NCBI GenBank assembly: GCA_024244705.1
Contig: JAAEOK010000077.1
Span: forward strand, 62,001 to 126,000
Direction: 5' to 3'
Source: Alphaproteobacteria bacterium
GTDB lineage: Bacteria; Pseudomonadota; Alphaproteobacteria; JAAEOK01
DNA: 64,000 nt
Made by a program: the position numbers and the translations under genes. The number at the start of each line of letters is the position of its first letter. The first letter of the stretch is position 1. Positions 4,515 through 26,675 of this stretch are shown here, piece after piece. The notes beneath the pieces were generated by a model, which saw only the letters and a list, made by a program, of their open reading frames with translations, was not told the DNA's origin and made no database searches.

Positions 4515-6305
4515 TCAGTACACGCGGGCCTTGGGCGGAAAGTGCTGAACCTCATTGCTGAGCGGCTGCAGATGAACCGGGCGGTAGTCGATTGCTGTCT
4601 CTCCCGCCTCGTTGCAGGTCGTGATGGTGTGCTTCAACCAATTGACGTCATCGCGGTCGGGGAAATCTTCGCGGGCATGCGCGCCGCGGCTCTCGGTCCG
4701 ATTGCGCGCCGAATTGATCGTCACCTGAGCCTGGTAAAGAAGGTTATCGAGTTCGAGTGTCTCGACCAGATCGCTGTTCCAGATCATCGACCGGTCGGTG
4801 ACGCGGATATCGCTGCGTTTACTCCACAGGTCCGCCATCCGTTCGCACCCCTCGCCGAGCGTTTCGGCGGTCCGGAACACGGCACAATCGCGTTGCATGA
4901 TTTGCTGCATTTCCAGCCGCAGCGCGGCCGTCGGCGATTCTCCCTCGGCATGGCGGAAACGGTCGAGGCGGTCGAGCGCGCGGTCTCCGATTCCGTTGGT
5001 CAGCGGTCGCTGTGGCTGACGGGGCGTCATCAACTCACCGCACCGGTTGGCGGCGGCGCGGCCGAAGACGACGATATCGAGTAGCGAGTTCGAGCCCAAG
5101 CGGTTGGCGCCGTGCACCGAGACGCAAGCCGCCTCTCCAATCGCCATCAGGCCCGGCACGATGGCGTCCGGATTGCCACCGTCCAAGGTGACGACCTCGC
5201 CGTGATAGTTGGTCGGTATGCCGCCCATGTTGTAATGGCATGTGGGCAGGACGGGGATCGGCTCGCGTGTCACATCGACACCGGCGAAGATACGCGCCGA
5301 ATCGCTGATGCCCGGCAACCTTTCGTGGATCGTCGCCGGGTCGAGATGTTCGATGTGCAGGTGGATATGGTCCTCGGTTTCGCCGACCGCGCGGCCTTCC
5401 CGGATCTCCACCGTCATCGCGCGGCTGACCACATCGCGGGATGCGAGATCTTTGGCCGAGGGCGCATAACGCTCCATGAACCGCTCGCCCTCGCTATTGG
5501 TCAAATAGCCGCCCTCGCCGCGTACGCCTTCGGTGATCAACACGCCGGCGCCGTAAATCCCGGTCGGATGGAACTGGACGAACTCCATATCCTGCAACGG
5601 CAGGCCGGCGCGCAACACCATCGCATTACCGTCGCCGGTACAGGTATGGGCCGAGGTGCAGGAGAAATAGGTGCGGCCGTATCCGCCGGTCGCCAGCACG
5701 GTCATGTTGGCGCGAAAGCGGTGAATCGTGCCGTCGTCCAGGTTCCACGCCATGACGCCGAGACAGGTGCCGTCATCGTCCATGAGCAGGTCGATGGCGA
5801 AATATTCGATGAAGAACTCCGCATCATGCTTCAACGCCTGTTGATACAGCGTGTGAAGAATCGCGTGCCCGGTGCGGTCGGCGGCGGCGCAAGTTCGCTG
5901 GGCGGTGCCCTCGCCGTAGTTGGTCGTCATGCCGCCGAAGGGACGCTGATAGATCTTGCCGTCCGGCGTTCGCGAAAATGGCACGCCGTAATGTTCCAGC
6001 TCGACGACCGCTGGAATCGCCTCGCGCACCATGTACTCGATGGCGTCTTGGTCGCCCAGCCAATCGGACCCCTTGATCGTGTCGTACATGTGCCAACGCC
6101 AATCGTCGGGACCCATGTTGCCGAGCGCCGCCGACATACCGCCCTGGGCCGCCACGGTGTGGCTGCGGGTCGGGAAGACCTTGGTGATGCAAGCCGTGCG
6201 CAGGCCTTTTTCGGCCATGCCGAATGTCGCGCGTAAGCCCGCGCCGCCGGCGCCAACGACAATCACATCATATTCGTGATCGATGACTTGGTAGGCTTGC
6301 GCCAT
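4515..6305 (-). CDS. sdhA: succinate dehydrogenase flavoprotein subunit
   Basis: Catalytic subunit of complex II (596 residues); it oxidises succinate to fumarate at a covalently bound FAD. The N-terminal FAD motif [14 protein letters not shown] is followed by [16 protein letters not shown], whose histidine is the covalent FAD site. The capping domain contains [22 protein letters not shown], and the catalytic region has [13 protein letters not shown]. Length matches the family (about 590-600). The start codon overlaps the sdhD stop by one base (TGATG), indicating translational coupling. The C-terminus keeps the conserved HTITT and [10 protein letters not shown] segment. Confidence 0.98.
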
Positions 6306-6691
6306 CAGATGCCGGCCCCCAGAGCGATGCGCAGCACGGCGACGACGGAGGCGACGCCAAGCACGATCGCGAGCCCTTTGACGGCGATGATGGCACTGAT
6401 CTTGATCGGTTCGCTATGCACGTAGTCCTCGATCACGACCTGAATCCCCGATTGCGCGTGATGGAAGGTCGCGACGATGAGCAGAACCAGGAGAACGGTC
6501 ACCACGGGCGAACTGATCCATTGCAGGAAGACCGCATGATCGGCCCCGGTCAACGCCGCCACCGATGCGACGAACCATATTGTCAATGGGATCAATGCCA
6601 GGGCGGTGAGCCGCTGGGCCCACCAATGGGCAGTGCCGTCCTTGGCTGAGCCCAGGCCGCGCGCGGTCTTCATCGGTGTCCGAAACGCCAT
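6305..6691 (-). CDS. sdhD: succinate dehydrogenase membrane anchor subunit
   Basis: A 128-residue membrane anchor with three hydrophobic helices (about residues 32-52, 60-80 and 100-123). The segment [20 protein letters not shown] contains the conserved histidine that usually ligates haem b and the residues near the quinone site. Together with SdhC it tethers SdhAB to the inner membrane and reduces ubiquinone. It starts 3 bp after sdhC and overlaps the first base of sdhA, so the three genes are tightly coupled. Confidence 0.93.
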
Positions 6692-6694
6692 CGT

Positions 6695-7087
6695 TCACCC
6701 TCCCATCGCGGCATAGCCGAGGATCCACGACAACAGCGTAAGGCCGATGGCGGCGAACACGACGATCCACCCGGTGGCCGTCATTGTCTTGATTTCAAAC
6801 CCCAACCCGGCATCCCAGGCAAGGTGACGAATGCCGTTGCACAGGTGGTAAAATAGCGCCAGCGACCACCCGAAAAGCATCAACCGGCCAATCCACGACC
6901 CGATAACCGCTTGCGCGGTCTCGAACGGACCCGGTCCGGCCGCCGCCGCCAGCAGCCACCAGACCAAAATAAATGTGCCGACCGCCAGCGCGACCCCCGT
7001 GAGGCGGTGCAAGATCGACAGCGCCATGGTGATTTGCCAGCGGTAGACTTGCAAATGCGGAGAAAGAGGCCGGTTTTCGGACGCCAT
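6695..7087 (-). CDS. sdhC: succinate dehydrogenase cytochrome b556 subunit
   Basis: First gene of the sdh operon: 130 residues with three transmembrane helices. The N-terminus RPLSPHLQVYRWQITMALSI and the motif SILHRLTGVAL are family hallmarks; HLCNGIRHLAWD carries the axial haem histidine. I chose the ATG at 7087 because it has a GGGA sequence about 9 nt upstream and gives the usual start MASENRPLSPH. An in-frame ATG at 7111 would add eight residues and has no ribosome site. Confidence 0.93.
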   Translation of the reverse strand: MASENRPLSPHLQVYRWQITMALSILHRLTGVALAVGTFILVWWLLAAAAGPGPFETAQAVIGSWIGRLMLFGWSLALFYHLCNGIRHLAWDAGLGFEIKTMTATGWIVVFAAIGLTLLSWILGYAAMGG

Positions 7088-7160
7088 GATCGCAATCCCA
7101 GAATAGGGCATGGAACTAGGTACGAATTTCGTCGTTCGATGCCGCCTACACCATCAATGT

Positions 7161-7190: not shown

Positions 7191-7410
7191 CTTAGCGGCG
7201 GCGGCGATAACGGCGAAGAACGCAACTGCAACAATTTTGCGGCGAGCTTGTGGTCGCATTCGCCCGGAAGCCACGACATCTAGAAATATTCCATTGAAAG
7301 GGTCCACAATCGTTGGCTCCTGTGAATAAGTTTGTGGAAAAAATTTGGAGTAATTGTGTGTCTTTCGAGTAGATATACACAGAAATATCGAAACACCCGT
7401 GAATTTATTA

Positions 7411-7439
7411 TTGCGGTTCAACTTTGCCCTGAGCAGTAT
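7411..7439 (+). promoter_or_regulatory. candidate promoter for the large structured RNA
   Basis: TTGCGG (7411-7416) and CAGTAT (7434-7439) are separated by exactly 17 nt on the plus strand and sit in an AT-rich stretch (about 7200-7440) just before the GC-rich hairpin array begins. Transcription would start near 7446. The elements are imperfect, and no transcription data exist to confirm them. Confidence 0.35.
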
Positions 7440-7705
7440 TGTTTCAGGTACGCGATGCGTCGGAGCGCAATGTGTCAGGAAGCGAACGGAGCCTTCGGGC
7501 CGAGTGAGCGGAAAGATGAGGCGCGCTTCGGGTCGAACGGGAAACCGAACGACCAGCCGGAGTAACCTGCGGAACCTCCGGGATCCAAGGGTTGCAGCCG
7601 AAGGGCTCTTGTCTCCGGCCGCTCGGTCCCAAGTGACCGGCATGGGTTTCGCCTCGGTGGAACCGGTGTCAGGACACGGCGGCGCCTCTCCCTCCCGAGA
7701 TGGCG

Positions 7706-8033
7706 ATGCAGGGATCGGGGCTCGGCGGACCTGTCGGGAAACCGGTGGGAACGGCGGGGCGGCAGACGGGCAACCGTGTGTCGGCAAGGCCGGAGACAGT
7801 CCTCCGGACGATTTGCCGGGCAACCGGGAGGTCGGACGGAACGGTGGGCGGGTAACCGCCCGACGGATGGGCCGGTGACGGGTCACCGGAAGGCTCGCTG
7901 GGCGACCAGCGGACTGGACGGATCGGCGGGTGGGCAACCACCTGACGGGATGGCCGGAGACAGTCCTCCGCGAGGTGCGTTGGGAAACCGGCGGGCTGAA
8001 CGGAGCGCCGGGCGGGAAACCGCCTAGCGGAAA
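7706..8033 (+). repeat. four tandem 82-nt structural modules (GNRA hairpin array)
   Basis: Modules start at 7706, 7788, 7870 and 7952, each exactly 82 nt. In all four, GG-GNRA-CC sits at offsets 30-37 and again at 62-69: the loops are GAAA/GCAA, GCAA/GUAA, GCGA/GCAA and GAAA/GAAA in order. Modules 2-4 begin GGCCGG and open with a further hairpin (CCGGAG/CTCCGG, CCGGTGA/TCACCGG, CGGAG/CTCCG). Modules 2 and 4 share their first 19 nt exactly. Stem sequences differ between modules but stay complementary, for example CCGG/CCGG, CGCTGG/CCAGCG and GTTGG/CCGGC at the first GNRA hairpin. A fifth, partial module begins at 8034 (hairpin plus GAAA at 8065-8068), and a degenerate one may precede at about 7624. 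Confidence 0.85.
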
Positions 8034-8159
8034 GGCCGGAGGCAGCCCCTCGGGGCGCGACGCCGAAAGGCGAAGCGAAGTTCATCACGAGCGTCAACTC
8101 TGTCAGGGGTGCACGCTCAGCTGCAGGGATGGACGGAAAGGCTTGTAACGCGTGCTGCG

Positions 8160-8235
8160 AGGAACCCGCTGGGTTCCTGAGGCGCCAAGGGTGTCCCCGC
8201 CGGACAGGACCTTATGGTCCAAAGCCCTTGGCGCC
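8160..8235 (+). terminator. 3' hairpin plus 11-bp cruciform closing the candidate RNA
   Basis: AGGAACCC-GCT-GGGTTCCT (8160-8178) is a perfect 8-bp hairpin. It is followed by a perfect 11-bp stem, 8181-8191 with 8225-8235 (GGCGCCAAGGG / CCCTTGGCGCC). That stem encloses two smaller hairpins, TGTCC/GGACA and GGACC-TTAT-GGTCC, giving a three-way junction. Downstream comes only TCGCGCATTTT, a poor U-tract, so it could be a terminator or simply the 3' domain of the RNA. Confidence 0.4.
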
Positions 8236-8315
8236 TCGCGCATTTTAACACAGGCGATTCGCATTCACAACAATATTTTGTGTTATCAGCCACACGGCGT
8301 GGCAAATGTAGTGAT

Positions 8316-9383
8316 TCAAGCCGCGGGATCCCGACGCGGCATCAACACCGTATAGTCCAAATCGAGCAAGATCGCGGGGTCTTCGGTTGGCCCCGGATCG
8401 CGGCCCGGGAAATCCGTGCATGGGAGATCCTTGGTTGCGACGGTCCGCAGCCGCAGGGCGCCGAACCCGGGGGCCTGCTGCACCTCGAACCGGTCCACCA
8501 CCTCGCTCCACGCATACACGGTGTCGCCGGCAAAGGCCGGATTGAGATGACGGCCGCCGTTGAGGGCCGCCACCTTGAACGCATTGGCGAGGCCATTCAC
8601 GCTGAGCGCGCGGGCGAGACTGATGATGTGCCCGCCATAGACGATGCGGCGGCCGAACCGGCCGTTGCGTTCGGCATGTTGATTGAAATGCACTTTCGCC
8701 GTGTTCTGGTAGAGTCGGGTTGCAAGCATGTGATCGGCCTCTTCGATTGTCATGCCGTCGACATGATCGATGCGCTCGCCCGCTTGGTAGTCATCCCACA
8801 AATAGGGACTGCCGCTGTCGGCAACGTCGTAGGAGTCGGCGCCGAGGCCGGCGGGTATCACGATATCCTGCGCCGATGCCGCCGTCGGCAATTCCGGAAC
8901 CTCCGACGCGGGCGCCGGCGCATCCGGGTCGCGCTTGCGAACCATCACCCAGCGAACGTAGTCGAGGACGGTTTCGCCGCGCTGGTTGCGGCCATTCGAA
9001 TGCGCGTAAACGACCCCCGTCTTGCGGTTGGAATTCTCCCTCAGGCCGACAATGGTGGAGGCCGCGGACAGAGTATCGCCGGGATAGACCGGGGCGCCGA
9101 AACGCCCCGCCGCATAGCCGAGATTGGCCACCGCGTTGAGTGATATATCGGGCACCGTCTTGCCGAACACGATGTGAAACACGAGCAAATCGTCGAGCGG
9201 CGCCCGGTCCAGCCCGAGGGTGCGGGCGAACTCGTCGCTGGAGGGAAGCGCGAAGCGGTTGCCGTAAAGCGCGGTGTAGAGCGCGGCGTCACCGGTGGTT
9301 ACCGTGCGTGGGGTGGCATGGCGAATCTCCTGGGCGAGGCGAAAATCTTCGAAAAAGTTGCCCCGGTTGGTCTTTTCGCTCAT
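8316..9383 (-). CDS. mch: mesaconyl-CoA hydratase (beta-methylmalyl-CoA dehydratase), tandem MaoC domains
   Basis: A 355-residue enzyme of the ethylmalonyl-CoA pathway that interconverts mesaconyl-C1-CoA and beta-methylmalyl-CoA. Its N-terminus (KTNRGNFFEDFRLAQEIRHA) and the block HIVFGKTVPDISLNAVANLG closely resemble characterised Mch from Rhodobacter sphaeroides. Two hot-dog domains of the MaoC type are present, about residues 1-160 and 190-345; the second keeps VYGGHIISLARALS. The ATG overlaps the stop of the upstream CitE-family gene (ATGA), so the two are translationally coupled. It ends tail-to-tail with the candidate RNA at 7446-8235. Confidence 0.92.
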   Translation of the reverse strand: MSEKTNRGNFFEDFRLAQEIRHATPRTVTTGDAALYTALYGNRFALPSSDEFARTLGLDRAPLDDLLVFHIVFGKTVPDISLNAVANLGYAAGRFGAPVYPGDTLSAASTIVGLRENSNRKTGVVYAHSNGRNQRGETVLDYVRWVMVRKRDPDAPAPASEVPELPTAASAQDIVIPAGLGADSYDVADSGSPYLWDDYQAGERIDHVDGMTIEEADHMLATRLYQNTAKVHFNQHAERNGRFGRRIVYGGHIISLARALSVNGLANAFKVAALNGGRHLNPAFAGDTVYAWSEVVDRFEVQQAPGFGALRLRTVATKDLPCTDFPGRDPGPTEDPAILLDLDYTVLMPRRDPAA

Positions 9384-26421: not shown

Positions 26422-26448
26422 TGCCGCATGACTCCAAAACACAAAAGC

Positions 26449-26479
26449 GCCCGTGCGCGAAACTCGCGGACGGACGGGC
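26449..26479 (-). promoter_or_regulatory. terminator-like stem-loop in the ffh leader
   Basis: Arms GCCCGT/ACGGGC (26449-26454 with 26474-26479) enclose a second perfect hairpin, CGCGA-GTT-TCGCG (26456-26468). Read on the minus strand this is followed by CGCTTTTGTGTTTT, 28 nt before the ffh start. It could be an attenuator in the ffh/rpsP transcript or a barrier to antisense transcription. No alternative antiterminator fold was worked out. Confidence 0.4.
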
Positions 26480-26675
26480 CCCCTCGGGGGCATGGGTTAC
26501 TCAAATTGATTGAGCGCGGCGGAATTTATGCACCCCGGCCGCCAACGTCAAGCACGACCTTGCTCCCTATCTCGGGGCGCACGACCGCATTTGGCCGCGT
26601 GTACCGACGCCGCCGCCTTGCTATGATCGTGCGCCCAAACGATTTACATCGCAGCCGAGGCACGACGCGCAGGCC

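Follow-up and report, generated by a model that had tools for sequence, protein, structure and literature searches.

Here, we identified a predicted large structured noncoding RNA between sdhC and mch in an alphaproteobacterial genome. It almost certainly represents a real RNA class, and its family is found in a scattered subset of Alphaproteobacteria, typically behind a row of five DnaA-box sites and a predicted promoter. Taken as a whole, the data are best explained by an unlisted class of structured RNA that is large (~800 nt), acts in trans and is linked to a DnaA-controlled promoter, and we consider this explanation likely to be correct. Positions below refer to the window, that is, the whole 64-kb stretch of DNA that was analysed.

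Extent and predicted fold of the RNA

The features of the RNA and the genes flanking it are as follows.

6695-7111, minus strand: sdhC, divergent upstream neighbour (Pfam PF01127)
7446-8242, plus strand: large structured noncoding RNA, ~795 nt, predicted start at about 7446 (fold z-score, hairpin counts, homologues)
7447-7464, plus strand: conserved 5' element GGTACGCGATGCGTCGGA, consensus GNACGCGAAAGCGYCGGA (alignment of 76 upstream regions)
7724-8051, plus strand: four tandem 82-nt modules, 7724-7805, 7806-7887, 7888-7969 and 7970-8051 (repeat finder, alignment, repeat-unit model R1)
8161-8177, plus strand: hairpin hp0 of the 3' domain, GGAACC-CGCTG-GGTTCC (covariation in 3'-domain alignment A8)
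8179-8237, plus strand: 13-bp stem P1 of the 3' domain (8179-8191 with 8225-8237), probable terminator
within 8179-8237, plus strand: hairpins hp1 (8192-8206) and hp2 (8207-8220), enclosed by P1
8243-8246, plus strand: short run of U residues following the terminal stem, with longer runs in some homologues
8316-9383, minus strand: mesaconyl-CoA hydratase/MaoC-like gene (mch), convergent neighbour (Pfam PF19315, PF01575)

The minimum free energy (MFE) fold of 7446-8237 on the plus strand gave exactly the counts reported by a first-pass annotation of this DNA, namely 22 hairpin loops, including ten GNRA and one UUCG loops. The segment coordinates of that annotation were also accurate, with a predicted start at about 7446 and a terminal stem that ends at 8237. 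The minus strand of the same segment had 0 GNRA and 0 UUCG loops in its MFE fold, and 15 dinucleotide shuffles of the segment produced 11-18 hairpins with 0-3 GNRA loops. The folding energy z-score of 7440-8260 was -11.5 on the plus strand versus -2.0 on the minus strand.

A search against all Rfam models had been proposed as a check of this candidate. When it was run, no Rfam 15 family matched the window RNA at gathering or relaxed (E<=5) thresholds, a flavi_FSE hit to the RNA segment (14.3 bits, E 2.1) being rejected as chance level, and 17 homologous loci had no Rfam match either. The sole gathering-level Rfam match in the window was the 'ffh' sRNA motif (RF01793) at 26440-26491 on the minus strand (37.5 bits). 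No publication describing the RNA was found in a full-text search of the open-licence literature, and the main text of a 50-genome noncoding-RNA survey makes no mention of DnaA or Alphaproteobacteria.

Homologues and their distribution

Whole-RNA BLAST searches against relatives, phages and plasmids returned nothing usable, because the primary sequence of the RNA diverges too fast, and a degenerate DNA pattern search of viral contigs gave no match. The first homologues were found by synteny, using 80 loci retrieved with the neighbouring mch protein. L010 (Kiloniellales), L013 (Kiloniellaceae) and L035 (Rhodospirillaceae) have gaps of similar size at this site, and all three gaps end alike, with a hairpin GGAGCC..GGCTCC, a stem GAGGCGYCRGG..CCYGRCGCCTC enclosing two hairpins, and U residues. 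With respect to the genes, this 3'-terminal structure has the same orientation as in the window, and the gaps of L010 and L013 fold better than shuffles on the RNA strand. Similar-size gaps in Magnetospirillum and Parvibaculum were rejected as homologues since they hold ORFs instead. Other ORFs also occupy the mch-sdhC gap in species without the RNA (11098-11895 in L024, 11155-12019 in L053, and further cases in L036, L062 and L074), and the spot therefore seems to accept different inserts.

A covariance model of the 3' domain (R2), begun by hand from four sequences, matched 33 of 385 family-spread alphaproteobacterial genomes, usually with one copy of the RNA per genome. Its rebuild, R3, matched 34 of these 385 genomes at the class-wide threshold of E<=0.001, where E-values are rough owing to a short calibration of the model. 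In one order, R3 also matched 33 of 61 genomes, in a second order 11 of 15, and in one family all four. In a phylum-wide sample of 398 genomes, R3 matched the window's own genome and none of the 397 others. The genomes are mostly metagenome-assembled or lack a species name.

The RNA often adjoins sdhC, as it does in the window. Many genomes have no sdh gene beside the RNA, and its neighbours include AhpC, an Fe-alcohol dehydrogenase, Sel1, GGDEF/EAL, MlaC, DUF1223 and other genes. The DnaA-box array and the RNA stay together across these changing neighbourhoods. Neighbours that differ between lineages, next to a pairing of array and RNA that is kept, speak for a product that acts in trans and mean that the array belongs to the RNA. 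Control of sdh as the main role of the array is unlikely, given that both elements persist where sdh is not adjacent.

Covariation and coding potential

Conserved pairing between genomes had been named by the first-pass annotation as a second check, and conserved, covarying pairing was found in many alphaproteobacteria, both at the sdhC-mch locus and elsewhere. Among 79 homologous 3' domains (window 8161-8242), 97.6% of the cells were paired and 20 of the 23 pairs had changes on both sides, and 0 of 500 shuffles reached any of these measures. When the pairing partners were slid as a control, paired cells fell to 39-52%. Because this alignment was fitted to the hand-started model, the numbers of pairs are biased in favour of the modelled structure; the bias is offset by the slid-partner controls and by the independent finding of the array.

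For the same reason, full-length RNAs were aligned de novo (MAFFT, RNAalifold). Seven species yielded 60 compensatory pairs versus 19-32 in column shuffles, and four species yielded 38 versus 9-20. Compensatory counts from two sequences were often not above shuffles, groups of more divergent species being decisive, and one nearly identical trio (f242) was uninformative for covariation. These computations show that the whole 600-950-nt RNA covaries in the better-sampled lineages, that the 3' domain with its terminator is conserved and covarying, and that a 5' hairpin is conserved at the predicted start. In the alignment of 76 upstream regions, a conserved 5' element, GNACGCGAAAGCGYCGGA, lies directly downstream of the predicted start.

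The gap had been described as lacking a supported protein gene. ORFs do overlap the RNA, but the reading frame is not kept between homologues and nearly all indels are non-multiples of three, which indicates that the RNA does not encode a protein.

Tandem modules and a fast-changing interior

The first-pass annotation had rightly recorded the hairpins of the gap but overlooked both the four 82-nt tandem units and the DnaA-box array with its promoter (7321-7440). Each unit contains three hairpins, two of them GNRA-type. Compared as paralogous copies, the units have eight pairs with changes on both sides, a number reached by 5 of 500 shuffles. In the 385 genomes, model R1 found the window's own four units only; a 25-bit match in L024, on the opposite strand relative to mch, was dropped as chance. 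The interior of the window RNA is without a close relative, and its predicted fold rests on energy and on the four repeats.

Predicted lengths of the homologues range from ~140 to ~1470 nt, with a median of ~700 nt. Their folds contain 180 UUCG loops versus 4, and 81 GNRA loops versus 14, in one shuffle of each. In two homologues, tandem modules make up nearly the entire RNA, 10.5 x 33 nt in L156 (~5620-6060) and 7.8 x 67 nt in L148 (~5840-6450), with UUCG hairpins between GGAA-type internal loops. By computation, the RNA interior is shown to be fast-changing, modular, rich in UUCG and GNRA hairpins and able to expand as tandem repeats. Short forms of ~300 nt from array to 3' domain were seen in L220, L234, L235, L236 and L239 (from locus position 1501). 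They come from related genomes, their arrays are sometimes diverged, and G758, the genome of L220, has a second 3'-domain match.

The number of large structured RNAs known from bacteria is small, and most of them lack a clear function. The RNA described here enlarges this set by an unlisted class, which is found repeatedly across a substantial part of the Alphaproteobacteria. A resemblance to the giant RNAs GOLLD, ROOL, OLE and HEARO had been noted in the first-pass annotation. The large, structured plus-strand RNA of an unlisted class held up, but homology to these four found no support, as their models matched neither the window (gathering, E<=5) nor the 17 homologous loci. GOLLD is of comparable size and likewise has a conserved 3' region; it is encoded by phages or prophages near tRNA islands, whereas the gene of the window RNA is chromosomal and has an array of DnaA boxes at its predicted promoter. 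No tRNA lies within the 64-kb window, the phage collection gave no match, and the neighbours are chromosomal metabolic genes, which differs from the usual location of GOLLD and ROOL. OLE, ROOL and HEARO share the size class and hairpin density of the window RNA but differ from it in hosts, neighbours and promoter. The fast-evolving, repeat-expanding interior between conserved ends offers a natural experiment in large-RNA evolution.

A row of DnaA boxes at a fixed distance from a predicted promoter

Upstream of the predicted start, the following elements were assigned.

7321-7329, minus strand: DnaA box 1, TTATTCACA, exact consensus, array position 0 (pattern search)
7333-7341, minus strand: DnaA box 2, TTTTCCACA, 12 bp from box 1 (pattern search, array geometry)
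7344-7352, minus strand: box 3, array position +23, degenerate here (TTTGGAGTA on the plus strand; homologue array geometry)
7355-7363, minus strand: box 4, array position +34, half-conserved TGTG (TGTGTGTCT on the plus strand; homologue array geometry)
7373-7381, plus strand: DnaA box 5, ATATACACA, one mismatch, inverted, +52 from box 1
7411-7416, plus strand: predicted -35 element TTGCGG, beginning 38 bp after box 5 begins (near-invariant column)
7434-7439, plus strand: tentative -10 element CAGTAT, 17-bp spacer, weak conservation (read from the sequence)

The 169.5-kb contig contains only two TTWTNCACA sites, which are boxes 1 and 2 and precede the RNA start by 105-125 nt. The five-site array (window 7321-7381) has a fixed geometry in 76 of 78 homologues, with the consensus TGTGNATAA at 0, +12, +23 and +34 and TTATNCACA at +52; the sites at +23 and +34 are often reduced to TGTG. 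Homologues showed 0-11 mismatches out of 32 (two outliers at 13) versus 12-18 in shuffles. The array is absent from every search model and thus supports homology independently. The 12-bp tandem pattern of boxes 1 and 2 occurs once in the window's own 4.5-Mb genome and once in G300, a 4.36-Mb genome, at the RNA in both. In G334, a second tandem DnaA-box pair lies away from the RNA (C1:249071-249091) and is possibly the origin of that genome.

A near-invariant TTG, presumably of the -35 element, follows the start of box 5 by 38 bp in 61 of the 78 homologues and by 39 bp in eight (69 of 78 together). The computations thereby show a conserved, putative sigma70-like promoter at a fixed distance downstream of the five-site array. 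Such a register is what a transcription-control site needs, as opposed to a pure titration site, and it favours a promoter that is probably controlled by DnaA. On the other hand, the weak -10 element and the degenerate boxes 3 and 4 in the window, as judged from the sequence, count against this reading. The row of DnaA boxes before the promoter suggests that the RNA is made in step with DNA replication. As a functional lead the rigid array is strong, and control of a giant RNA by the replication initiator is directly testable.

Possible function and alternative explanations

We propose that transcription is activated, or gated, by DnaA bound to the array at about -69 to -121, such that the RNA level would follow the DnaA or replication-initiation state. 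The RNA would then act away from its own locus. A multivalent scaffold or sponge is its most likely role, in which the repeated hairpin modules may bind many copies of one partner, either a protein or the RNA itself as in GOLLD and ROOL, and the conserved 3' domain may serve for termination, for stability or as a docking site. Conserved ends that flank repeated, exchangeable hairpin modules would suit a scaffold or sponge, although this part of the proposal is tentative and rather doubtful; no known partner of the RNA was found. A widespread giant RNA class that is switched on by DnaA through a five-box promoter array and that feeds back on the cell cycle is a real prospect, at somewhat less than even odds. 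If true, it would amount to a replication-coupled RNA scaffold located outside the origin, and we know of no example of this category of cell-cycle control.

An unlikely alternative is that the locus serves chiefly as a DNA site that titrates or converts DnaA, with the RNA as a by-product or helper. The E. coli datA site, which lies outside oriC, contains five DnaA boxes and an IHF site (PMC4585315), and the array described here likewise has five strictly spaced boxes, is located outside oriC in G300 and is unique as a tandem array in the genome. datA and DARS resemble it as non-oriC clusters of DnaA boxes with constrained spacing, yet they are noncoding DNA acting on DnaA (PMC4585315), whereas here the array is in register with the promoter of a structured RNA. 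A pure titration site needs neither the 38-39-bp distance to the -35 element nor a covarying structure over 600-950 nt, and both are kept.

There is only a slight probability that the array is the chromosomal origin itself and the RNA an oriC-associated transcript, positioned like CcnA of Caulobacter. This was our first reading of the locus. In its favour, an AT-rich DnaA-box cluster lies beside a promoter, the window's own genome has no other tandem box pair, and its hemE-RP001 region (RP001 identified by eye), on a different contig from the RNA, has no clear box cluster. The genes hemE, hemH and rho are the usual origin context in alphaproteobacteria. G300, the one single-contig genome with the RNA, has its GC-skew minimum at ~625 kb beside these genes, about 1 Mb away from the RNA at 3.98 Mb, and a DnaA-box cluster at that minimum (C1:627234-627370, L209) marks a clear chromosomal origin. 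GC skew and the hemE-linked origin thus led us to reject the first reading in G300, where the locus is not oriC. For the window's own genome the exclusion is indirect; its contig, like those of three other genomes, has no GC-skew sign change at the RNA. CcnA of Caulobacter crescentus lies within oriC, is presumed to be activated by CtrA and acts on the ctrA and gcrA mRNAs (PMC8959179). Both are alphaproteobacterial noncoding RNAs tied to replication-control DNA, but CcnA is in oriC and the RNA in G300 is not.

Our preferred reading, a DnaA-promoter-linked, trans-acting RNA, was also weighed against two explanations that we regard as highly improbable. A CsrA/RsmA-sequestering RNA of the CsrB/RsmZ type would have repeated hairpins with ACGGA linkers, and ACGGA-like linkers do occur in the 82-nt units; however, homologues favour UUCG loops, and the window's own genome lacks a CsrA gene (PF02599), as do 20 of 33 carriers (present in 13), which refutes a CsrA sponge as the general mechanism. 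A DNA-level array of repeats or hairpins without RNA function (REP- or cruciform-like, or a mobile-element remnant) would account for the tandem 82-nt repeats and inverted repeats, but not for the marked difference between the strands in folding energy and GNRA loops, the mostly single copy per genome, the conserved promoter and terminator, and the covariation.
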